Positions 5,896 to 47,642 of a stretch of DNA of 47,642 nt are shown piece by piece. The first letter of the stretch is position 1; each line of letters opens with the position of its first letter. The notes below the pieces were generated by a model. It saw only the letters and a program-made list of their open reading frames with translations, did not search any database and had not been told where the DNA came from. The DNA comes from a virus. The stretch lies in IMG/VR virus record IMGVR_UViG_3300046798_000067, positions 1 to 47,642 of that record; one strand, written 5' to 3'. The translations under genes were made by a program, and so were the position numbers.

Positions 5896-7791
5896 TTGCC
5901 GAGCAAGTGGCAATATCCACGATACGGAGAGGCTTGGAGCGAGTGCCAATGGTGCGGACAGGAGTATCCGGCATCGCTCATATGGCTGAATCCGCGCTAC
6001 GGCTGGCAATGCTACAAGTGCTGGGACGGTCTCGTACAGAGAGACCAGATCCTACAGCCGATCTTCCCGTACGAAGGCACCCGTAGGACCCCAGCGCCGG
6101 TAATTCCGAGGCTGGAAGGCGTCGGGGCCTCCCTAGAGCCGACTTACGACTACTTCCTCCGGGACCGCATCACCGGGATCGTCTACGAAGTCCATCTTCC
6201 GCCCTTTTCGATCGTCGAGGGCGGAATTATCGTCTATTTCACCACTACTCTCCCGACTCTGACCGTCTCCGACGAGACGGACAACGTCTGGGACGGCCTC
6301 CGGGGCATCACGAACGGCTGGGACCTCTACGTCCGTAACGGAGCGATCGCTACCGAGCTGAACCCGATTGCCCTGAACCTCGAGATCGTGGACGGAATCT
6401 GCGATTTCGGCACGATTACATCTCTCTGCTCGGTCTACATGCAGGACCAGGCAACGGCTGACGTCTACCTGGCCGACTTCTCGACGACTCCGCCGACTCT
6501 GACGCTTTCCGGCTCCCCCGGAACGACTTTCGACGCGGTACAGGCCGGAGACGGTTGGTTTATCGTCGTTTCTGGCGCGGCGCTCTTCTCGGCCGTATCC
6601 CCTCCAGCCGATGCAGTCGTCTTTTCGAACGATTGTATCGTGGGGGGTACTCCCATCGATTCGGGGGGCACTGGCCCCGGCATCACGCCGACTCCGGACC
6701 CACCGACGGTCACTTGCCCGTCCACCGTCATCACGGACCTGGACGTAGCTTTTACGGCAGTCGTGACGCTTCCCGCGGGGGTTACCGCAGTCGATTACCT
6801 ATGGGACTACGGAGACGGCACGACGGAGGACACGGGAACGACCCCGACTGCCTCTCACAGCTATGCCTCCATCGGCATCTACACGGTCAACGTGACGCTG
6901 ACGGACAATTTCGGTCGGCAGGTATCGGCCGGGGGATGTCCGTTGACACTCGAGGGCGAGCCGGTGGTTGTGGTCTGTCCGGATGCAGTAATTTCCGATC
7001 TCGATGTGGACTTCACAGCGACTCCTCCGGCCGGAGTCGTCACGAACTACCACTGGAATTTCGGCGACGGAAATACCGCAGATACGGGCACCACCGCGAC
7101 GACTTCACATACTTACGCCACCGCGGGCACCTACGACGTGGTTCTTACTGTCACCACGACGACGGGTAGCGGAGCAAGCCCCGACTGCCCCGTTACGACC
7201 ACCGCGCCGACGTGCAACGTTGCCCCCCTGCTCAGCGACGATACCTGCTGGAATGCCGATGGCAGCGGCCACGGCGTCACGTTCGACCGGCTATCGATTC
7301 CGCCGACCGTCACAATCGACAACATGGATGGGCTCGCCGATACGGCCTCCTTCGAGGCGTGCTCCGCGAGCCGCAGCGGCGGCCTAATTGCGGACTTCGG
7401 ATCGCACGTCCAAGAACTCGACACCGACCATGTGGGGGCGCTCACTTCGACGAACATACAGCTCCTATCAGCGGCGACCCAAGGCGGCGCAGGTGGAGCA
7501 ATCGATGGCTTCAGCGTCTACCTCCAGGACCCAGGCGGGAGCGGAGACCGGATGAGCACGTACTTCGTCCACTCCGATCAGTCCGGAGGCGAGTGGATGT
7601 CGCTGCGGCTCGGTGCCAAGCCGGGGCGGATCATCAAGTACTCCTGTCCGTATCTGTGCCTGAGGCTCCCGACTACGCCGCCCGTAGTATCTGGCGGAGG
7701 GTGCTTCTTCCCGAGCACCATGCACCCCGGGGACGAGTCGCACGTCGTATGCACGGATCTCGATGAAACCGGCTGTACGATACCGTCATGA
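5896..7791 (+). CDS. Virion surface protein with Cys4 site and two PKD domains
   Basis: This 631-residue protein begins at TTG directly after the upstream TAG. Residues 17-43 hold two CxxC pairs (CQWC and CYKC), probably a zinc site. Two PKD-like beta domains follow at about 269-342 and 357-428, each with a WDYGDG or WNFGDG turn and a SHSYA or SHTYA strand. The remainder is beta-rich and unassigned. PKD domains in phage proteins usually act in display or adhesion. The stop overlaps the next ATG. A role as accessory fibre or head decoration is inferred. Confidence 0.7.
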   Translation: MPSKWQYPRYGEAWSECQWCGQEYPASLIWLNPRYGWQCYKCWDGLVQRDQILQPIFPYEGTRRTPAPVIPRLEGVGASLEPTYDYFLRDRITGIVYEVHLPPFSIVEGGIIVYFTTTLPTLTVSDETDNVWDGLRGITNGWDLYVRNGAIATELNPIALNLEIVDGICDFGTITSLCSVYMQDQATADVYLADFSTTPPTLTLSGSPGTTFDAVQAGDGWFIVVSGAALFSAVSPPADAVVFSNDCIVGGTPIDSGGTGPGITPTPDPPTVTCPSTVITDLDVAFTAVVTLPAGVTAVDYLWDYGDGTTEDTGTTPTASHSYASIGIYTVNVTLTDNFGRQVSAGGCPLTLEGEPVVVVCPDAVISDLDVDFTATPPAGVVTNYHWNFGDGNTADTGTTATTSHTYATAGTYDVVLTVTTTTGSGASPDCPVTTTAPTCNVAPLLSDDTCWNADGSGHGVTFDRLSIPPTVTIDNMDGLADTASFEACSASRSGGLIADFGSHVQELDTDHVGALTSTNIQLLSAATQGGAGGAIDGFSVYLQDPGGSGDRMSTYFVHSDQSGGEWMSLRLGAKPGRIIKYSCPYLCLRLPTTPPVVSGGGCFFPSTMHPGDESHVVCTDLDETGCTIPS

Positions 7792-8500: not shown

Positions 8501-11332
8501 GTGCGGGGAAGCTACAAAATCGGTGTCATTGCGGTCTTTTCCGCAGCTACAATCGCGCTTGCTGGCTCGACGCAGTCGCGCGGAAGGTTAACCGGCCGGG
8601 CTCACCACGGCGGGGGTAGTATCCCCCCGACGGCTACCGCTACTCCGACGTCCGCTCCGCCTGCTCCGACGGCGACTCGTACTCCGACCGCTACTCCGAC
8701 GTCTACGCCGACTCCGGTCGTGACGCCGAGCGGCTGGGGCGCGGATACGGCAGGGGGAACCGGTCAGTCCACGGTTCACGTCACCAATACGAACGATAGC
8801 GGCGCAGGAAGCCTCCGGACGGCCCTCTCGGCGGGCAACCGGAACATCGTCTTCGACGTCGGCGGGACGATCAGCTTGGCGTCTCGGCTACTCGTCAACG
8901 GCTCTTTCGTCACGGTAGACGGAAGCACCGCGCCGAGCCCTGGCATCACCCTGACGAACTACTCGCTCCGGCTCGAGGGGAGCACGGTCCACGACATCAT
9001 CCTGACGAACTTCCGCTCTCGCGCCCCGACGCTCGATACGGAGCCGGACAACGTCACGATCAAGAACGGGGCTTACAACATCCTGATCGACCACCTGTCC
9101 ACGGATAGCCCGTCGGACGGGAACATCGACATCACCCTCGGCAGCCACGACATCACGGTCCAGTACTCGATTCTGAGCAACGGCACGAAGTCGATGCTCT
9201 TGAATTACGCGACCTACCACGTCTCGATTCACCATAACCTCTTCATCAACGAGCAGTACCGGAGCCCGAATACCCAGTACGACGACGCGGCTACAAGCAT
9301 GTCTCCGAGCGTCATTTCGGACGTCCGGAATAACGTCATCTGGAACTGGGGAGACTCGGGCGGCGGCTCGATCTGGCAGTGCGGAGGCACCGGGAACGAC
9401 GTCGCCAATTACTACTACTCGGGCGCGACGACTCCCTCCCGGAAGGCCAACGGCATCGTCAACGACGGATGCTCGGGAGGCACCGCGCAGCCCCAGTTCT
9501 ACACCTCGGGGAACTTCTCCGGAGACGATTCGAGCTCGCATCTGAACGCGCAGGGAACGGTCGGCGGGGCCTGGTCGGCTCCGGTCATCGAGGAGCAAGC
9601 CGTCTGCGATGCGGCGACTCTCGTCAAGGGAGGGGCTGGAACGACCCCACTCGACGCAACCGATACGGCGCTTCTGAACTCGGTCTCCCTGGTCGGCTGC
9701 GTATCCCCGACTGCGACCCCAACTGCTACTCCGACGGCTACCAGGACTCCGACAGCAACGCCGACGGCTACCCGGACACCGACTCCGACGCCAACTCCGA
9801 GCGGGGGCATCAACCCGATCAATCCGGACTCGGACTTGACGTATTTGGGGGCTTTCCGGGTGCCGAACGACAACAACGCCGAGTGGACATTCGGGGGCAC
9901 GGCCATGACCGTGAACCCGGCTGGAGACTCCGGAAACGGCTCCCTCTACCTGTCCGGCCTGACGATCGGAGTTGGGCACGGGAAATTCGCCGAGATCAAC
10001 ATTCCGACTCCGATCATCGATCCGGACCTGAACAACCTGACCCGGGCAACGACGATTCAGGCAATGGCGGATATCGCTCCGGGGCTACACCCGAACGACA
10101 CACAGACGACCTTCCAGATGAGCGACCCGCTCTTCGGGGCCGTCTCGAACAAGCTCATGTGGACGAGGTACATCTTCTACCTGCCAGCGTCCGAGGCGAC
10201 ACTCGGGTGCTCTTCGACGACCATATCGTCCCCGGCTCCGACCGGCCCCTGGAAGATCGGCCCGACGCAGGCCAATAACTACGGTGGAGCGACGCTTGGG
10301 AGGTGGCTCTTCATGCTGCCGCAGTCCTGGGCGGACGCCCATACCGGAGGCCGGGCACTCGCTACCGGGCGCTTCAGAACGAACGCCAACGCGGGTGGAA
10401 CGTCCTGGGGGCCGTCCCTATTCGCGCTCCCGATGGCTTGCACGTCCGGAGCCTCGGACGCAGTCGAGGTCATGCACAACACCAGCCGCGATACGCGCTG
10501 GGCGCATGAGACCTGGGCAGACGACTGGAACGATGCCGACTGGGTAACGACTCCGACCGGGAACAAGGCAGCGATGGTGGTTGCCGGGGCGAAAGCGGAG
10601 CGGGAAGACGGCGGAAACGCCTGCGGCTTCAACTTCTGCGGCTCCAGCCGCGGTGCTCAGTACTACGGACACCCGCAAGCCCACGACTGTGGAGGCAAGG
10701 GAAACCACGGAGCACCCATCTTCGGGGCTCTCCTCTTCTACAACGTGAACCAACTCGCCTCGGCCGCCGATGGGTCGATAGCGAAAGACTCGATCGACCC
10801 CTACGCGGTCTACCAGATTCGGGCGAACCAGTACCTGACGAGCCAGTGCAAGAAGGGCGGATTCGGGGGCATTGCCTACGACTCGACCCATCACCGGCTC
10901 TACGTCGCGGAGCTGAATGCGGAGCTTCCCTCGACGACCCAGAAGCCGATCATCCACGTCTGGGCGGTTGCGGACGGCGGCGGCAGCGCAGACACAACGG
11001 CTCCGGCAGTACCGACGGGGCTTCATACGACGAGTGTTTCCGGGGCGGGTGTTGCGCTTGCCTGGAACGCGGTCACGGACCCAGCGGGTGGGGTCGTCTA
11101 CATCGTCTACCGTAACCCGATTGACCAGGAGCTATTCGCTCCGGAGACGACGGTGCCTTACGGGCAACGATATCCGGCTGGGCCACAGCCCTTCGCGATC
11201 ACGTCGAGTCTCTCCTACACGGACGACTTGGAAATCAACTCGGGCATTACCTACACGTACTATGTGGCGTCGAGGGATTCCCTCGGCAACACGAGCGTCA
11301 GATCGAGCGGCGTAACAGCGGCAATCCCATAG
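8501..11332 (+). CDS. Pectate-lyase-like surface protein with TP linkers and FN3
   Basis: This 943-residue multi-domain protein starts at GTG after GGGAGGGG. The start looks like a signal peptide (GVIAVFSAATIALAG). Thr-Pro-rich linkers at about 43-75 and 401-432 separate the domains. Between them is a right-handed beta-helix resembling pectate lyase (SGWGADTAGGTG, then DSGAGSLRTAL and VTIKNGAYNILIDHLS). A second large domain (about 433-829) is not recognised. A fibronectin type III domain ends the protein (about 830-943). It probably binds or cuts a surface polysaccharide. A signal peptide is unusual for a virion protein. Confidence 0.75.
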   Translation: MRGSYKIGVIAVFSAATIALAGSTQSRGRLTGRAHHGGGSIPPTATATPTSAPPAPTATRTPTATPTSTPTPVVTPSGWGADTAGGTGQSTVHVTNTNDSGAGSLRTALSAGNRNIVFDVGGTISLASRLLVNGSFVTVDGSTAPSPGITLTNYSLRLEGSTVHDIILTNFRSRAPTLDTEPDNVTIKNGAYNILIDHLSTDSPSDGNIDITLGSHDITVQYSILSNGTKSMLLNYATYHVSIHHNLFINEQYRSPNTQYDDAATSMSPSVISDVRNNVIWNWGDSGGGSIWQCGGTGNDVANYYYSGATTPSRKANGIVNDGCSGGTAQPQFYTSGNFSGDDSSSHLNAQGTVGGAWSAPVIEEQAVCDAATLVKGGAGTTPLDATDTALLNSVSLVGCVSPTATPTATPTATRTPTATPTATRTPTPTPTPSGGINPINPDSDLTYLGAFRVPNDNNAEWTFGGTAMTVNPAGDSGNGSLYLSGLTIGVGHGKFAEINIPTPIIDPDLNNLTRATTIQAMADIAPGLHPNDTQTTFQMSDPLFGAVSNKLMWTRYIFYLPASEATLGCSSTTISSPAPTGPWKIGPTQANNYGGATLGRWLFMLPQSWADAHTGGRALATGRFRTNANAGGTSWGPSLFALPMACTSGASDAVEVMHNTSRDTRWAHETWADDWNDADWVTTPTGNKAAMVVAGAKAEREDGGNACGFNFCGSSRGAQYYGHPQAHDCGGKGNHGAPIFGALLFYNVNQLASAADGSIAKDSIDPYAVYQIRANQYLTSQCKKGGFGGIAYDSTHHRLYVAELNAELPSTTQKPIIHVWAVADGGGSADTTAPAVPTGLHTTSVSGAGVALAWNAVTDPAGGVVYIVYRNPIDQELFAPETTVPYGQRYPAGPQPFAITSSLSYTDDLEINSGITYTYYVASRDSLGNTSVRSSGVTAAIP

Positions 11333-11352
11333 CAGGGAGGCGGGGAGCGTAG

Positions 11353-12771
11353 ATGAATAAACGGCGAAGTACCGTGATTATGTGGGGCCTGGTCGGCGTT
11401 CTCGCCGCATCCATGCTCGGCATCACCACGGACCAGATCATCCAAAACGTCTACGACCCGGTAAACACCGCGCTACGGGCAAACGTCATCGGTGGGAGCG
11501 GGTCGCTCTCGCTGACCGTCGGCACGACCCCGATCACGAACGGGGCCGATACGCGGGTTCTCTTCCAGGATGGGACTGTACTCGGGGAGGACTCGGGACT
11601 CGTCTTCAACAAGACGACGAATGCGGTGTCGGCGGGTGGGGACGTCACGGCGGGAGCCCTCGGGACGGGACCAGGAACCTTCACCGCGGACGCCGATAGC
11701 TGCGTCACGCTCTCCGGGGCCTCGACGAACGTCCTCTGCTCGGACGCGGTCGGTGGCTGGCTCGCCTCCGAGCTCGGCGGCGGGTACTCGCATCAGCTCA
11801 CGGCCAACTCTACAGACGTCGTCACGAACAAGACTTTTAACGGCATCACGTTTACCGGAGCTGTCACGGGACTCACGGCTGGACTCGTTCCACAGGCTTC
11901 CTCCTCGACGGGCCTTGCGGATTCGTCCTCCTACCGAGTGAGTCTGGCAAACTCCGGCTCTACCGGGACGACGGTGAACAAGACCGTCAAGCTATCGAGC
12001 GCGGGCGCAGGCGTCATCATGTCGGCGGGCGATACGGCAGGCATCTTCGGCATCGTCGAATCGGGCGCAGGGACGACGGGGAGCGCGATCGTCACCCTCA
12101 TTGGCCTGACGACTTGCGTCTCTGATAACTCCACGACCACGGGCCATTACGCTGGCCTGTCCTCGAGCGTCGCCGGAGACTGCACCGACCTCGGAGCTTC
12201 GTTCCCCGCTACCGGAGTCGCGGTCATCGGGACATGGAAAGAGACCGGAGCGGCGGCGGCTCGATCTCTCCTCTTCAACACCCCTGACGTGTCGAGCGTG
12301 AGCGCGGCGACGAACGGCAACGGCAACGGGCCGGGCGTCAAGGGCACCGGCACGGCCAACTTGATTCCCAAATTCAGCAACGGCAATACCATCGGGAACT
12401 CGTCGATCACGGACAACGGGACGACCATCAGCTCGAGCGAGATCCTGTCGGTTGGGGCACTCACCTACAACGGGAAGCTCAACATCGCGGACATCACCGC
12501 CGAGAACGCGAGCTTTACCATCGCCCACCGGATCGAGTACGTGACCACCTCGACGAGCACGATCGTAGCGACGACTCCGACCTCTCCGACGGTTGGGGAC
12601 ACCTACACGGTCGTCAAGGTAGACAGCGGAAACGGCAACATCACCTGGACGCGGGCAGGGTCGCAGACGCTCAACGGAGCAACCACGCGGGTCGTGTCGG
12701 CGCAGTACGCCGTCGATACCTGCACGTACATGGCCTCGAACGTCTGGATTTGCCAGGGTAACGGGACATGA
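11353..12771 (+). CDS. Fibre-like protein with N-terminal membrane anchor
   Basis: This 472-residue protein starts at ATG after GGAGCG. A hydrophobic segment (WGLVGVLAASMLGI, about 11-24) is followed by the TDQIIQNVYD motif shared with the 51-aa protein at 8319. The body is Gly-, Thr- and Ser-rich beta sequence typical of phage fibre shafts (TRVLFQDGTVLGEDSG, then TAGLVPQASSSTGLADSS). The C-terminal part (TVGDTYTVVKVDSGNGNITW) resembles fibre tip domains. It is likely a fibre or host-surface adhesin. The stop overlaps the next ATG. Confidence 0.7.
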   Translation: MNKRRSTVIMWGLVGVLAASMLGITTDQIIQNVYDPVNTALRANVIGGSGSLSLTVGTTPITNGADTRVLFQDGTVLGEDSGLVFNKTTNAVSAGGDVTAGALGTGPGTFTADADSCVTLSGASTNVLCSDAVGGWLASELGGGYSHQLTANSTDVVTNKTFNGITFTGAVTGLTAGLVPQASSSTGLADSSSYRVSLANSGSTGTTVNKTVKLSSAGAGVIMSAGDTAGIFGIVESGAGTTGSAIVTLIGLTTCVSDNSTTTGHYAGLSSSVAGDCTDLGASFPATGVAVIGTWKETGAAAARSLLFNTPDVSSVSAATNGNGNGPGVKGTGTANLIPKFSNGNTIGNSSITDNGTTISSSEILSVGALTYNGKLNIADITAENASFTIAHRIEYVTTSTSTIVATTPTSPTVGDTYTVVKVDSGNGNITWTRAGSQTLNGATTRVVSAQYAVDTCTYMASNVWICQGNGT

Positions 12772-13763
12772 TGCGTAGACTCTTAGTCGCCCTCCTGGTC
12801 ACGGTCGTCGCTGCGGGTGGAGCTTTCGGCTCCATCTACTCGACGACGATTGCCGCCGATGCCCCGGTCCATTGGTACAGGCTCGGGGAGTCGAGCGGGA
12901 CGGTGGCGAACGATTCCGGGTCGTCTATCGTGGCTGGGGACTACGCGGGAACCCTGAACACCGGGTACTTCCTGAGCGAAGTGGGTATCACCGGGGCGCT
13001 CCCGAATACTGCCGCTCGGTTCAACGGGACGACGGGGGGCGTGAACACGAACAACAATACGGTTGCGTCGATCGCGATTCCGTCATCCGTGAATACCGTC
13101 GGATGGACCTTCGAGGGTTGGGCGAAGACATCCGCCAACGCGACCACGCAGGCGATTGCCGGAAACAACAACACGAACGGCGGCTGGGTCGTCGGCCTCC
13201 ACTCGACGAACAAGTTCTTCTTCAATACGGACCAGGGTCCGGGCGCTCCGACTTGCGGCGGCGCTACCTACGGAACGACCGGGAACGTCGGGAGCTGGTC
13301 TACCGGAAACTACTACCACGTCGTCGCAACGACCGTCGGAGCCGGGTCGTCTACCCTGACGAACATGAAGCTCTACGTGAATAGCTCGCTTCTGACGACC
13401 ATCACGAGCTTCACCGGAACGATCTGTACCGGCACGTTTGCCGCCGTCACCCTGGCGGAGCGGAACGGCGGACTCTGGATGACCGGGACGATGGACGAGG
13501 CGGCCTTCTATTCGTCCGCGCTCTCCCAGACCCAGGTAACGACCCACTACAACGCGGGGATTGCGGTCTCCGGCTCCTCCGCGTGGCCTTTCCTGACGAG
13601 ACGGCCAGAACTTCCTGGCTTCATCAATAAAGATTACTTGGCCCAGGCCGTAGCACGCGGGTACAATACGGGGCTTCTGACGTCGCGGGAGATCCACCCA
13701 CAGCTCCTGAACGTCGGCTACGCGAACTTCGCACAGATGCCCTGGGGGAATGTTGGACACTGA
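12768..13763 (+). CDS. LamG/concanavalin-like lectin protein
   Basis: This 331-residue protein starts with a signal-peptide-like sequence (LLVALLVTVVAAGGAFG). Residues from about 28 to 250 match the LamG/concanavalin A-like fold used by many phage receptor proteins: APVHWYRLGESSGTVANDSG, then WTFEGWAKT, then LYVNSSLLTTI and MDEAAFYSSALS. The last 60 residues form a separate tail with PFLTRRPELPG. It probably binds glycans. It is the third protein in a row with a hydrophobic N-terminus. Confidence 0.75.
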   Translation: MMRRLLVALLVTVVAAGGAFGSIYSTTIAADAPVHWYRLGESSGTVANDSGSSIVAGDYAGTLNTGYFLSEVGITGALPNTAARFNGTTGGVNTNNNTVASIAIPSSVNTVGWTFEGWAKTSANATTQAIAGNNNTNGGWVVGLHSTNKFFFNTDQGPGAPTCGGATYGTTGNVGSWSTGNYYHVVATTVGAGSSTLTNMKLYVNSSLLTTITSFTGTICTGTFAAVTLAERNGGLWMTGTMDEAAFYSSALSQTQVTTHYNAGIAVSGSSAWPFLTRRPELPGFINKDYLAQAVARGYNTGLLTSREIHPQLLNVGYANFAQMPWGNVGH

Positions 13764-13845
13764 CACTAGCGGAATCGTCCGAATCGCGGCGCGGGTGATG
13801 ATGTATGCGGTGGCGGGACTCTGCCTTATCTACATCTTCAACTAA
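13750..13845 (+). CDS. 31-aa membrane peptide
   Basis: The frame begins 14 bases before the lectin stop and reads MLDTDTSGIVRIAARVMM, then YAVAGLCLIYIFN. The second half is a single membrane span. It opens a run of small membrane genes ahead of the endolysin, so a lysis accessory role is possible. The GGGGGA site before the ATG is good. Confidence 0.5.
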   Translation: MLDTDTSGIVRIAARVMMYAVAGLCLIYIFN

Positions 13846-13867: not shown

Positions 13868-13960
13868 GTGGCAAGGATCGCCCTCGTCGTCTGGGCGATG
13901 CTGCTCGCTGCCCGCTGCCATTCCTACTGCGAAGTCTACGAGTGGGAGCAGCGCCCCTGA
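13868..13960 (+). CDS. Small exported or membrane peptide
   Basis: GTG 13868 gives 30 residues starting VARIALVVWAMLLAARC; an in-frame ATG at 13805 would give 51 residues and nest it over the upstream gene. A hydrophobic stretch followed by Cys is faintly like a lipoprotein signal, so a spanin outer subunit is one option. Evidence is weak: a short open frame, placement in the lysis cluster and a stop just before the next ATG. Confidence 0.35.
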   Translation: MARIALVVWAMLLAARCHSYCEVYEWEQRP

Positions 13961-13961
13961 G

Positions 13962-14147
13962 ATGACTCTCCTTGCCGACTACGCCCCGCTCCTGATCGCC
14001 GTCAGCGCGGGGATGCTGTCCTTCGCCTGTCTCTACTACTTCGCGCTCCTGATCGTCCTCTGGGCGATCCGGAATTCCATCGACCGGCTATCGCGCGCCG
14101 TCTACATGACTCGGAAACAGCCCGAACGAGAGCCGGAATGGCGATAG
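13962..14147 (+). CDS. Small membrane protein, holin-like
   Basis: This 61-residue protein has a long hydrophobic stretch (about 8-36: LLIAVSAGMLSFACLYYFAL then LIVLWAI) and a charged tail (TRKQPEREPEWR). It is followed with no gap by the PAS-domain gene. Size, charge pattern and place before a GH108 endolysin suit a one-span holin or holin partner. No sequence family is recognised. Confidence 0.5.
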   Translation: MTLLADYAPLLIAVSAGMLSFACLYYFALLIVLWAIRNSIDRLSRAVYMTRKQPEREPEWR

Positions 14148-14561
14148 ATGCCTGACATGATCCACGTTCTGGCCGACCAGCTTTCCACTCTCGCCAAGTC
14201 GGTCCGCCACCACGAGACGATTACAAATGCCGTCTTTGAGGGAAACCCCGACGGGCTCGTGGTAGTGAATGAACTCGGCACAATCGTTATGGTGAACGAG
14301 AGCTTTGAAAAGATGACCGGCTACGGCCGGAAGGACCTGATCGGGAAGCCGGTAGAGATTCTGGTTCCGGAAGGAAGCCGCGAAAGACACGTCATGCACA
14401 GACTCAGCTACCTCATCAAGCCGACCGCGCGGCAGATGAATGGGGCATTCACGATACAAACCGCAGACGGGGGCGCTCTTCCCGTAATGGTCGGGCTCTA
14501 TCCGGCAGGTTCCAACGGGGACCGCTGGGTCGTAGTCACCGTTCGGGGTCGGCTTGGGTGA
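14148..14561 (+). CDS. Stand-alone PAS-domain protein
   Basis: This 137-residue protein is nearly all one PAS domain. After a helix (HHETITNAVFEGNPDG) come GLVVVNELGTIVMVN, the classic ESFEKMTGYGRKDLIGKP helix region, then VEILVPEG and HVMHR, ending with a beta sheet (GDRWVVVTVRG). PAS domains sense small molecules, light, oxygen or redox state, or mediate dimers. There is no kinase, HTH or other output domain. Its ATG follows the stop of a holin-like gene and its end overlaps the next membrane gene, so it may govern those proteins. Ligand and output are unknown. Confidence 0.85.
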   Translation: MPDMIHVLADQLSTLAKSVRHHETITNAVFEGNPDGLVVVNELGTIVMVNESFEKMTGYGRKDLIGKPVEILVPEGSRERHVMHRLSYLIKPTARQMNGAFTIQTADGGALPVMVGLYPAGSNGDRWVVVTVRGRLG

Positions 14562-14925
14562 ACAGCATGACATCGCCTCTGAGCTCGACGCTGTAGCCAA
14601 GAAACTCATCCTCACCAAAGGGCAGCGGGAAGTCCGGATCGCCGACATCGTTGCCCTCCTGTCGATTGCCGGGATGATCTACACGTTCATCTCGTCCCAG
14701 TCGGCCCTCCAGGCAGCCATCGGCCTGAAGCTCGACCTCCTCGAGCGGGAGATTGCGGAGCTTCGGAAGACGGCCGATCCGGTGCCGATGATGGTCTACA
14801 AGGTCGATGCGCTCGCGCGGTCGCAGGAAGAGAACGAGCGGCAGAGGCAGATGGCCATGCAGGACCTCCGTGAGATGCACGACAGCCTGATTGCGATGGG
14901 CATCAACCTGAAAGGCAAGAGGTAG
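14554..14925 (+). CDS. Membrane protein with coiled coil, lysis-type
   Basis: This 123-residue protein starts at TTG 14554, overlapping the PAS gene by 8 bases. A membrane segment (IVALLSIAGMIYTFISSQSA, about 31-50) is followed by a long coiled coil (LLEREIAELRKTAD, then ARSQEENERQRQMAMQDL). This layout resembles an inner-membrane spanin (Rz-type), though here about 30 residues precede the span. It lies directly before the endolysin. A holin or anti-holin is also possible. Confidence 0.55.
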   Translation: MGEQHDIASELDAVAKKLILTKGQREVRIADIVALLSIAGMIYTFISSQSALQAAIGLKLDLLEREIAELRKTADPVPMMVYKVDALARSQEENERQRQMAMQDLREMHDSLIAMGINLKGKR

Positions 14926-15020
14926 TGGGTGGAGGAGGAGGACCAGGGGCCGCGGGAACGCCGCCCGCGATTCATGTTCAGGCTGTCTCTTACAGCCGTC
15001 CTCAAGTGGCTGTTCGGCAG

Positions 15021-15443
15021 ATGAGCGACTTCGATAAATGCGTCTCGATCATCATCGACGACTTCGAGGGGGGAGACAAAGTCGTCTACGACTCGGGCGG
15101 AGCCACCCGGTTCGGCATCTCCTCCAGGGCCCACCCCGGCCTCGACATCCCGAACCTGTCGAGGGAGCAGGCAATCGAGATTTACAGGCGGAGTTACTGG
15201 GACGAGATCGGGGCGGACAAGCACCCGTGGCCGATGAACCTGGTGCTCTTCGATGCGGCGGTGAATCAAGGCGCTCCCTACGCCGAGGCGCTCGCCATGT
15301 CCGCCGTCGATTACGTCGAGGCGCTTCTTATGAGGGTGGAGCGCTACACGGACATCGCAAAGAAGAACCCGCTCCTTCGGAAGTACCACTACGCATGGGT
15401 CAATCGTGTCGTCAGGATCTACGAAATGCTACAAAAGGCATGA
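15021..15443 (+). CDS. Endolysin, glycoside hydrolase family 108
   Basis: This peptidoglycan-cleaving enzyme carries the family signature DDFEGGDKV (Glu 16 is the likely catalytic acid) followed by DSGGATRFGIS, as in ZliS-type lysozymes. IYRRSYWDEIGAD and LFDAAVNQG match the later helices. ATG 15021 puts Glu near residue 16, as usual. The frame is open back to GTG 14925, which overlaps the upstream stop and would add a Gly-rich 32-residue leader. The 140-residue form is a normal length. It cuts the cell wall after membrane breach by the neighbouring proteins. Confidence 0.85.
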   Translation: MSDFDKCVSIIIDDFEGGDKVVYDSGGATRFGISSRAHPGLDIPNLSREQAIEIYRRSYWDEIGADKHPWPMNLVLFDAAVNQGAPYAEALAMSAVDYVEALLMRVERYTDIAKKNPLLRKYHYAWVNRVVRIYEMLQKA

Positions 15444-15453
15444 GGGAAAATCG

Positions 15454-15807
15454 ATGACTTGGGTACTAGACCTCCTGAAGCTCCTCTTCGGTAGCTCGTC
15501 GAACGCAGCCCTTCTGACCGTGGCTCGGGACGTGGTGGCAGAGGCTACGACCGCGCTCATCAACAACATCGCCGCGGTTGGGGTCGAAGACGGGGCGCGG
15601 TTCATCGCCGACGCCCGCGCGCTCTCCGTCCAGATCAACGCGAAGACGGACGCTACCGGGGTCCAAAAGATGGAGCTTTACCTCTCGGCGGCGAAGGAAC
15701 TGATCGTCGAGCTCGGCGGAGACGTCGGGCATGTGCTGGCGGAATCGGTCACTCGGACGCTCGCGGAGCTGTTCCACCAGACCGACGCCAATCTGCCGCG
15801 TGGATGA
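15454..15807 (+). CDS. Hypothetical protein downstream of endolysin, 117 aa
   Basis: ATG 15454 follows a GAGGGAAA site. The protein begins with an amphipathic stretch (WVLDLLKLLFGSSS) and continues as Ala-rich helices (VARDVVAEATTALINNI). No full membrane span or motif is clear. The stop overlaps the GTG of the next gene. It is probably translated with the lysis genes; function unknown. Confidence 0.55.
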   Translation: MTWVLDLLKLLFGSSSNAALLTVARDVVAEATTALINNIAAVGVEDGARFIADARALSVQINAKTDATGVQKMELYLSAAKELIVELGGDVGHVLAESVTRTLAELFHQTDANLPRG

Positions 15808-16162
15808 GAAGAAGAAAGTAAGAGAGTGGATCGAGACAACGTTCGCTCTCTCTTGGAAAGACGAAATCGAGTTATCGCTGGCGTGGGGAGTGCTGAAGCG
15901 GAAGGGGCCGATCATGAAGGAAGTGATAACGAGGTTCTGGACCGACCCGGCTTACTTCACGGCCGCGTGCCGGTCTCTCGCGACACTCGTAGCGACGCTC
16001 CTCCTGACGGGAGTCATTCCGGTCCCGGAGTCGATCTCGCATCAGGTCTGGTGGACGGCGGTCGTGCTACCGGCGCTTTCGCAGCTCTTCCCGGCTGGGC
16101 AGACAAACCGGACGGACCAGCAGATCAGGGACGTCGCGCGCGGGTTTCCCGGGAAGCTGTGA
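15800..16162 (+). CDS. Membrane protein, possible holin
   Basis: GTG 15800 overlaps the upstream stop and gives 120 residues. ATG 15914, behind a good AAGGGG site, would give an 82-residue form starting MKEVITRFWTDPAYF. Two hydrophobic segments (SLATLVATLLLTGVIPV and VWWTAVVLPALSQLF) fit a two-span holin. Two starts of this kind are used by some holin genes to make holin and inhibitor, so the pair deserves attention. The stop overlaps the next GTG. Confidence 0.55.
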   Translation: MDEKKKVREWIETTFALSWKDEIELSLAWGVLKRKGPIMKEVITRFWTDPAYFTAACRSLATLVATLLLTGVIPVPESISHQVWWTAVVLPALSQLFPAGQTNRTDQQIRDVARGFPGKL

Positions 16163-16257
16163 ACGACGGGAGCGCATGGAGGTGGCGAGATCTGCCCTTC
16201 CTGATTGCGCTCGCCTTCCTCGTCATCGCCGTCTGGGTCCTTCGGGAGAATGATTAA
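16159..16257 (+). CDS. 32-aa membrane peptide
   Basis: The GTG overlaps the upstream TGA, and the frame ends directly before the next ATG. The peptide has one span (LPFLIALAFLVIAVWVL) with a charged end RENDD-like tail (LREND). Perfect fit between neighbours supports translation. It may belong to the lysis group. Confidence 0.5.
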   Translation: MNDGSAWRWRDLPFLIALAFLVIAVWVLREND

Positions 16258-41398: not shown

Positions 41399-42199
41399 GT
41401 GAGGCGTGTAAGCCTTGTCGTTATTGGATTAACAGCACTCCTGTCTCTCGGTTGCGAAAACGTCCAGCCGACGAGCCAAGCGACCGAACAAGTTTGCACT
41501 CCGCGCCCCGTCTCCGTCTCTCTCGTAAATAGCTGGCCCCTCATCGACGCCGAGTCCTACGCCACCGACCAGGAGCGCGCCTGCGCTTCGATGGTCTACT
41601 ACGAGATGTTCCCGTGGGCGGTGAGAACGGCAGAGTGCGACGAGGCCCACCCGACGTTCTGTACGAATGCGTACCGTCACGAGCGCCGCCTCCACCTGAA
41701 GGCGATGTCCGCTCACAAGATCAAGACCGTCTGGTCTCCGGAGAACTTCAACGCCTACGGACCGAAGCAGTGGACGGACTTCCAGTTTCGGGACTTCATC
41801 CGGGACTTCAAGGAAGACGCCGAAGACGTCGGGCTAGAGTGGGTGATGATGTCGATCGGCGGAGAGCCCTGGGCCTGGAACTACGACAGCGCCCGCACCC
41901 GTGCGGAGATCGTCCGGGCCGAATGGCCGGGACTCCTCGTCATGGCAGACGCCGGAGCCAACGAAGCAACGGGCCGTCCCTACTTCGAGGGCCTCCAGTA
42001 CGATCTCCTCGAGGTCCACCCGTGCTCGATCGAGCAAACGTACCGCTCTCTCCGCCACTCCGGAAACATCCTGACTGTCACGGACTGTGGTCCGGTGCTG
42101 GTGCCCGAGCAGCCGACTCGGTCGGACCTCGAATTGGAGGCCGTTCGCTCCGGCGTTCCCCTCCTCTTTTACGGCTTCCAGCTAGACTCGCTTTCCTAG
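41399..42199 (+). CDS. Lipoprotein with glycosidase-like barrel, cargo gene
   Basis: This 266-residue protein begins with a lipoprotein-type signal (VVIGLTALLSLGC, Cys near 19). The mature part resembles a TIM-barrel glycoside hydrolase or lyase: VWSPENFNAYGPKQW, EWVMMSIGGEPWAWN, LLVMADAGANEATG and LEVHPCSIEQTYR, with Glu in GGEP as a possible acid. It stands between terminase and portal, where packaging genes are normally adjacent, so it is an added gene. It may alter the host surface or block other phages. The enzyme call is tentative. Confidence 0.5.
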   Translation: MRRVSLVVIGLTALLSLGCENVQPTSQATEQVCTPRPVSVSLVNSWPLIDAESYATDQERACASMVYYEMFPWAVRTAECDEAHPTFCTNAYRHERRLHLKAMSAHKIKTVWSPENFNAYGPKQWTDFQFRDFIRDFKEDAEDVGLEWVMMSIGGEPWAWNYDSARTRAEIVRAEWPGLLVMADAGANEATGRPYFEGLQYDLLEVHPCSIEQTYRSLRHSGNILTVTDCGPVLVPEQPTRSDLELEAVRSGVPLLFYGFQLDSLS

Positions 42200-46525: not shown

Positions 46526-47467
46526 ATGTCGGCAAGAATGCTCACTTCCAACAACCCGGATCTCTACAAGCCGGGACTACGGAAGGCGTATCTCTCGGAG
46601 GTCGATGACATCCCGAAGCAGGGACGTCAGTGGATCAACATCATCTCCGGGCCGAATCCGGGTGGACAGGCAGGGCGGAACTACTTCCAGGACGTCCAGG
46701 TAGCATCGTTCGGCCCCTGGCTCCCGAAGCCTCAGGGCGCGCCGATCCAGTACGACCGGATTCAAGAAGTCGGCCTCGTCACCTACCAGCCCTACACCTT
46801 CGGCATGGGCGCTCGGGTGACGATGGAAGCGATGGACGACGAGCTTTACGGCGTGATGGAGAAGATCGCGACCGAGCTCGCCGCCGCGGGCGCGTACCAG
46901 ATGGAGAATCAGTTCTTCCGGGTACTGAATAGCGGAGCGGGCACTCAGGGCGGAACCGGCTTTACCGCAACCGGCTTCGACTCGACGGCCCTTTTCTCGA
47001 CCGCGCACCCCCTGAAGCGGGGCGGCACCTGCGCCAACCGGGCCACCACCGACATGGACCTTTCCGTGACGGCGCTCGAAGTCGCACAGGAACTCATGCA
47101 GACGACCCTGTCCGAGAGCGGCACTCCGACTCCCCGGACTGGCGAGATGCTGGTCGTTCCTCCCGGCCTCTACTACACGGCGAAGGAACTGACGCAGAGC
47201 GAACTCAAGCCCTACACCGCGAACAACGAGATCAACCCGGTCCGCGGCGAGCAACAGTTCATCCAGGTCAACTACCTCTCCGACACCGATAGCTGGTTCC
47301 TGCTCGCGGCCAAGGAGAAGCACGACCTGAATGCGTGGCTACGCCGGGACATCGACATCGAGTTCGGCGACGACTTCGACACGGGCGACCTGAAGCTGAA
47401 GGGCGTCTTCCGTCTCGCAGCGGGTCACGGCGACTGGCGCGGTTCGTTCGGCAGCTACGGAGCATAA
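46526..47467 (+). CDS. Major capsid protein
   Basis: This 313-residue protein starts at ATG after TAGGAG. It has features of an HK97-fold capsid: an N-terminal arm, QVASFGPWLPKPQGAPIQYD, QPYTFGMGARVTMEAMDDEL (extended loop to spine helix) and later LSESGTPTPRTGEMLVVPPG and FLLAAKEKHDLNAWLRRDID, common in major capsid proteins of metagenomic phages. It is the last large head gene, after portal and scaffold. The 3' end is present again at 1-142. Confidence 0.85.
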   Translation: MSARMLTSNNPDLYKPGLRKAYLSEVDDIPKQGRQWINIISGPNPGGQAGRNYFQDVQVASFGPWLPKPQGAPIQYDRIQEVGLVTYQPYTFGMGARVTMEAMDDELYGVMEKIATELAAAGAYQMENQFFRVLNSGAGTQGGTGFTATGFDSTALFSTAHPLKRGGTCANRATTDMDLSVTALEVAQELMQTTLSESGTPTPRTGEMLVVPPGLYYTAKELTQSELKPYTANNEINPVRGEQQFIQVNYLSDTDSWFLLAAKEKHDLNAWLRRDIDIEFGDDFDTGDLKLKGVFRLAAGHGDWRGSFGSYGA

Positions 47468-47471
47468 GAAC

Positions 47472-47597
47472 ATGAAGAAGGCAGGAAGCAAGACGAACGT
47501 CGGGACGGCCGGCAAGCGGATTTCGAACGGCATCAAGAGCTGGGACGGCAAGAAGCAGGGGCCGTCGTCCAAGAACAAGGGCTTCGGCTCCAAGTAG
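47472..47597 (+). CDS. Small basic protein, second copy
   Basis: Same 41-residue gene as at 147-272, but with GK in place of KS at residues 14-15. The five changed bases lie within six positions (47511-47516), a cluster unlike the scattered silent changes in the capsid gene. Confidence 0.65.
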   Translation: MKKAGSKTNVGTAGKRISNGIKSWDGKKQGPSSKNKGFGSK

Positions 47598-47607
47598 AGG
47601 GGATTCG

Positions 47608-47642
47608 ATGGCAGACGTTGGAATCGACGCAACCGACTTCGG
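47608..47642 (+). CDS. Head protein start, cut by window end
   Basis: First 11 codons (MADVGIDATDF) of the protein given in full at 283-768. The window ends inside the gene. Confidence 0.8.
   Translation, partial: MADVGIDATDF

Follow-up and report, generated by a model that had tools for sequence, protein, structure and literature searches.

A stand-alone heme-type PAS domain encoded in the same gene run as the endolysin of a podovirus-like phage, and its possible part in lysis timing

Holins are thought to time phage lysis largely alone, and antiholins are the main known input to them. Could a phage also place a sensor of the host's chemical state among its lysis genes? This question is raised by a small gene upstream of the endolysin gene of a podovirus-like phage. 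A sequence-only reading of the locus had described its product as a PAS domain and nothing else, encoded between lysis-type membrane genes, and had proposed that it binds a membrane partner and adjusts the time of lysis to the state of the host.

The window analysed here is the whole 47,642-base IMG/VR record IMGVR_UViG_3300046798_000067. Its first 317 bases match the last 317 at 306 positions, and on account of this overlap the genome is close to complete; the record probably represents a complete genome that is circularly permuted or terminally redundant. The end repeat (1-317 and 47326-47642) includes a 41-aa basic ORF. The phage encodes a small and a large terminase, a portal, a major capsid protein and tail genes. 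Scans of about 45 ORFs against Pfam and/or PHROGs, a set from which many small early ORFs were left out, revealed no further signalling domain, be it a histidine kinase, a cyclase or a response regulator, and neither these ORFs nor a PAS search of the whole record yielded a second PAS domain. The genes surrounding the PAS gene are listed in Table 1.

Table 1. Genes and candidate genes around the PAS gene (window positions)
Feature	Position	Strand	Support
31-aa single-TM mini-protein, possible	13750..13845	+	codon score 13.5; TM 8-30
30-51 aa hydrophobic mini-ORF, doubtful	13868..13960 (longer form from 13805)	+	weak codon score; pN ~ pS
61-aa membrane protein with one long TM helix or two short ones	13962..14147	+	hydropathy
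137-aa PAS-only protein	14148..14561	+	Pfam; PDB sequence and profile matches; secondary-structure order in low-confidence model
123-aa TM/coiled-coil protein, TTG start	14554..14925	+	hydropathy; helical low-confidence model; purifying selection
GH108 endolysin (N-acetylmuramidase family)	15021..15443	+	PF05838 2.4e-16; phrog_315 endolysin 1.9e-27
117-aa protein, no significant family match	15454..15807	+	13 synonymous, 0 non-synonymous; strongly conserved
120-aa membrane protein, second possible holin	15800..16162	+	TM 55-75; no family match
32-aa single-TM mini-protein	16159..16257	+	codon score; hydropathy; sibling comparison

The description of the protein as a PAS domain alone was borne out. 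Its ORF matches PF00989 far above chance (51.2 bits, where the cut-off is 22.6) and also PF13426 (49.5 bits, cut-off 27), the PAS match (E 1.5e-13) spanning residues 28-133 of 137 over a nearly full-length profile. N-terminal helices (residues 4-30) precede the PAS core (31-133), and the protein ends right after the last strand; from the AlphaFold model, which was built on two sequences and reached a pLDDT of 40, only the order of secondary-structure elements was taken. The claim that the protein carries no signalling output also held: the Pfam search found no DNA-binding domain joined to the PAS domain, and no output domain of any kind is present in the 137 residues. The ORF is coding: its codon score lies above zero, and all its residue differences to the sibling phage described below are conservative. 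Its GC3 is 0.71 as against 0.77-0.84 in other genes, and no promoter or terminator that would isolate it scored above chance. An antisense ORF across the gene (14088-14648) was discarded, as it is interrupted by two stops in the sibling. The PAS gene is functional and maintained, and it bears signs of accessory status.

Which ligand, if any, might this domain bind? The nearest solved chains found with the single sequence are FG214 (10jx; the best PDB match, 1.7e-7), FixL and DosP, all of them heme PAS domains. We also built a profile from both phage sequences together with five relatives from bacteria, the ligand of the latter not being established. Heme PAS chains reached 80-107 bits with this profile, and no other PAS class exceeded 40 bits. 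The 31 Foldseek matches of lowest E-value, obtained with a poor model, are likewise all heme PAS domains. By these matches, the phage protein is placed in the FixL/DosP/FG214 heme-PAS subfamily.

The alignments further suggest how heme might be held. His81 aligns with the proximal heme ligand on the F helix, which is His156 in FG214 and His77 in DosP, Met97 with a Met that serves as alternative or distal ligand (FG214 Met172, DosP Met95), and His84 with FG214 His159. DosP uses His77 and Met95 as its heme ligands. In FG214 the heme is ligated by His156 together with His175 or Met172 (PMC13060918); the distal His175 is replaced by Ala100 in the phage domain. The distal arginine of FixL (R220) and DosP (R97, mutated to Ala in the PDB entry used for the alignment) is absent, with Gly99 in its place. 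Since FG214 works without this arginine, its loss speaks only to the O2-sensing mode of FixL and DosP. His81 and Met97 are both unchanged in the sibling phage, and the same two residues are kept in related bacterial PAS domains; as the ligand of those domains is not established, the heme assignment is to be read as a lead rather than as proof. Altogether, we consider it fairly probable that the phage domain binds heme, at a predicted His or His/Met site lacking the oxygen-stabilizing arginine. The earlier idea of redox or oxygen sensing is strengthened by the subfamily placement and the conserved proximal histidine.

The fold could, however, serve as a dimerization adaptor that binds no ligand and senses nothing, a protein-binding platform for lysis or tail proteins. 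Many PAS domains bind no cofactor, and the phage domain lacks both the distal Arg of FixL and DosP and the distal His of FG214, yet it retains His81 and Met97, and the solved members of its subfamily all bind heme; we regard such an adaptor as improbable.

Among the closest known systems is FG214 of Fimbriimonas ginsengisoli, a one-component HTH-PAS switch (10jx/10jy, PMC13060918), which shares with the phage domain the spacing of the ligand residues and an N-terminal helix ahead of the PAS core, but differs from it in its HTH output and its distal His175. The resemblance to the oxygen sensors FixL and DosP lies in the profile match at subfamily level, the proximal His and the equivalence of DosP Met95 and Met97, whereas their kinase or phosphodiesterase and distal Arg have no counterpart in the phage protein. 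By analogy of function, the closest precedent is VqmA of vibriophage VP882, also a phage-encoded PAS protein. VqmA combines PAS with HTH, binds DPO and acts on qtip transcription, and in this way senses the chemical state of the host and triggers the lytic programme (PMC8284805); unlike the phage domain studied here, it is neither a heme PAS nor a stand-alone domain within a run of lysis genes. For a protein dedicated to the timing of lysis, a precedent is the T/RI pair of phage T4, to which no sequence relation is claimed. RI works from the periplasmic side and lacks a PAS domain. This antiholin is described as binding the holin T and timing lysis to a signal (PMC11413866). Searches of the open-access literature yielded no case of a PAS domain with a lysis cassette or with holin and endolysin, nor of a heme-binding PAS domain in a phage.

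Whether the neighbouring genes act in lysis bears directly on the proposed role. The identity of the endolysin is certain from its family matches. An upstream extension of its ORF (14925-15020, 96 bases) shows two non-synonymous and no synonymous differences to the sibling phage, as compared to one non-synonymous and 17 synonymous differences in the endolysin body; by this substitution pattern, translation probably starts at ATG 15021 rather than at 14925. The PAS gene stands ahead of the endolysin gene with the 123-aa gene in between. The position between two membrane-protein genes was confirmed, but the labels "holin-like" and "lysis-type" were drawn from hydropathy only: in neither Pfam nor PHROG do the proteins flanking the PAS domain match a holin, spanin or other lysis family. 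The 61-aa protein, which has no Pfam match, is holin-like in size and hydropathy and could be a holin. The 123-aa protein consists of an N-terminal part of about 28 residues, a TM segment (29-47) and a coiled coil of about 75 residues in N-in orientation, and could be an i-spanin or a class III holin by topology only; no ORF with an o-spanin lipobox was found in 12.5-17.8 kb. The earlier proposal to predict the structures singly was followed for the PAS and the 123-aa protein, and both models are of low confidence, the latter being built from two sequences and reaching a pLDDT of 54.

The only relative of this phage found in IMG/VR is contig 3300046747_000203. In the lysis region its DNA is 93% identical, its genes follow in the same order, and its junctions are unchanged. 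In comparison with this sibling, the 61-aa gene (five synonymous changes against one non-synonymous), the 123-aa gene and the endolysin gene are under purifying selection, while the first mini-ORF of Table 1 differs at two positions only, so that divergence does not prove it to be coding. In the PAS gene, a 56-bp tract (14306..14361, + strand) holds 14 of the 17 differences, a clustering reached in none of 20,000 random placements. Together with a change at 14287, the tract leads to eight conservative residue changes at positions 47-69, away from His81 and Met97, and all other residues are identical. This suggests that the tract was exchanged with another PAS allele in the population.

Five differently built PAS queries brought up the sibling contig alone in IMG/VR, these pattern scans being insensitive to distant relatives; 50,697 phage records gave chance matches only, even at E 10. 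Scans with the terminase, the endolysin and the 123-aa protein found no further phage of this kind. One contig considered as a relative (L004) seems unrelated, with the GH108 gene alone in common. Of the search for the gene set in other phages, suggested earlier, there thus remains the same order in one relative and none in the 50,697 records. No PAS domain is present in phages with a distantly similar capsid or terminase (MW202785, MW202796, MW202554 and others), where synteny is too weak to tell gain from loss. Outside the sibling, the nearest sequences come from bacterial sensor proteins, whose PAS domains show about 30-40% identity; a PAS scan of genome contigs gave a weak match in a Sulfuricella MAG alone and was not informative. 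The heme-type PAS domain of this phage is real and rare, and a phage-encoded stand-alone domain of this type seems not to have been described in the open-access papers and phage records searched.

These observations touch on a quite different role, that of an accessory gene of the moron type, whose product would act on the host, for example by pairing with the PAS domain of a host sensor kinase or by processing signals from heme or a gas. The adjacency to the endolysin would then mean nothing more than that late-gene junctions tolerate insertions. The kinship with bacterial sensor proteins, the absence from distantly related phages, the lower GC3 and the exchanged tract all point in this direction. 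So does the dense packing of the genome, which makes position uninformative: it had been noted correctly, with the right coordinates, that the PAS gene touches one neighbour and overlaps the other, its start abutting the stop of the 61-aa gene (TAGATG) and its end overlapping the 123-aa ORF by 8 nt, but 25 of the 36 same-strand boundaries in 0-27 kb overlap or are at most 4 nt apart. As tight boundaries are usual here, the junctions say nothing on a link to lysis. On the other hand, both known phages retain the gene without any difference at its junctions, no amino acid is changed outside the divergent tract, and TAGATG apparently couples translation of the PAS gene to that of the 61-aa gene. 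An accessory role is accordingly a serious, if tentative, possibility.

The overlap with the 123-aa ORF also allows for a +1 shift at GGG TGA (14556-14561) that would fuse both proteins into a membrane-anchored PAS domain. The only start of the downstream ORF is a TTG inside the PAS end, the +1 frame is open, and the sibling has the very same junction; yet no known slippery motif is present, GGGG 5 nt ahead of the TTG makes a workable ribosome site, and short overlaps are common in this genome. Such a fusion is very unlikely.

We thus return to a PAS protein that modulates lysis by binding a neighbour. PAS and endolysin genes are co-directional in this phage and in its sibling, the two phages of this type known (93% DNA identity), and since they belong to the same run, the PAS protein is probably made late in infection. 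It would be a stand-alone cytoplasmic domain of the FixL/DosP/FG214 type holding heme b through His81 as fifth and possibly Met97 as sixth ligand. Reduction, or binding of O2, NO or CO, would change the ligand set and thereby alter a dimer or partner surface. Having no output domain of its own, the protein must act by contact, and the most economical partner would be one of its two co-translated membrane neighbours, most likely the 123-aa protein, contacted at its N-terminal stretch on the cytoplasmic side. Lysis would thereby come later or earlier depending on host redox or gas state.

Taken as a whole, a heme-PAS that binds a membrane neighbour and shifts lysis with host redox or gas state is our best explanation, though a tentative one that may well prove wrong. 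The membrane partner with its effect on lysis, which we infer, is for itself doubtful, and the narrower proposal of a heme-based redox or gas sensor in a lysis cassette, which would bind a membrane lysis protein and in this way set lysis time at the post-translational level, is unlikely. A lysis modulator that binds its neighbour and an accessory protein directed at the host appear about equally likely; we put the modulator marginally ahead because of the conserved gene order and the apparent translational coupling. Sensor-controlled lysis is plausible as one of several readings. If true, a cytoplasmic heme-PAS tied to lysis would let the phage read the oxygen, NO or redox state of its host directly when deciding to lyse, which is relevant in habitats with shifting oxygen.

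Further features lie elsewhere in the window. A 266-aa predicted lipoprotein (41399-42199; lipobox LSLGC) without family match occupies the interval between terminase and portal, an unusual place. Beside structural genes (1074-2970) there are an NAD-dependent epimerase and, as a weak match, a methyltransferase-like sequence, which possibly serve surface sugar modification. Putative virion surface proteins (5896-7791 and 8501-13763) display PKD repeats, a pectate-lyase-like fold and a LamG lectin domain, and the LamG gene evolves fast, with about 68 non-synonymous differences between the phage and its sibling.
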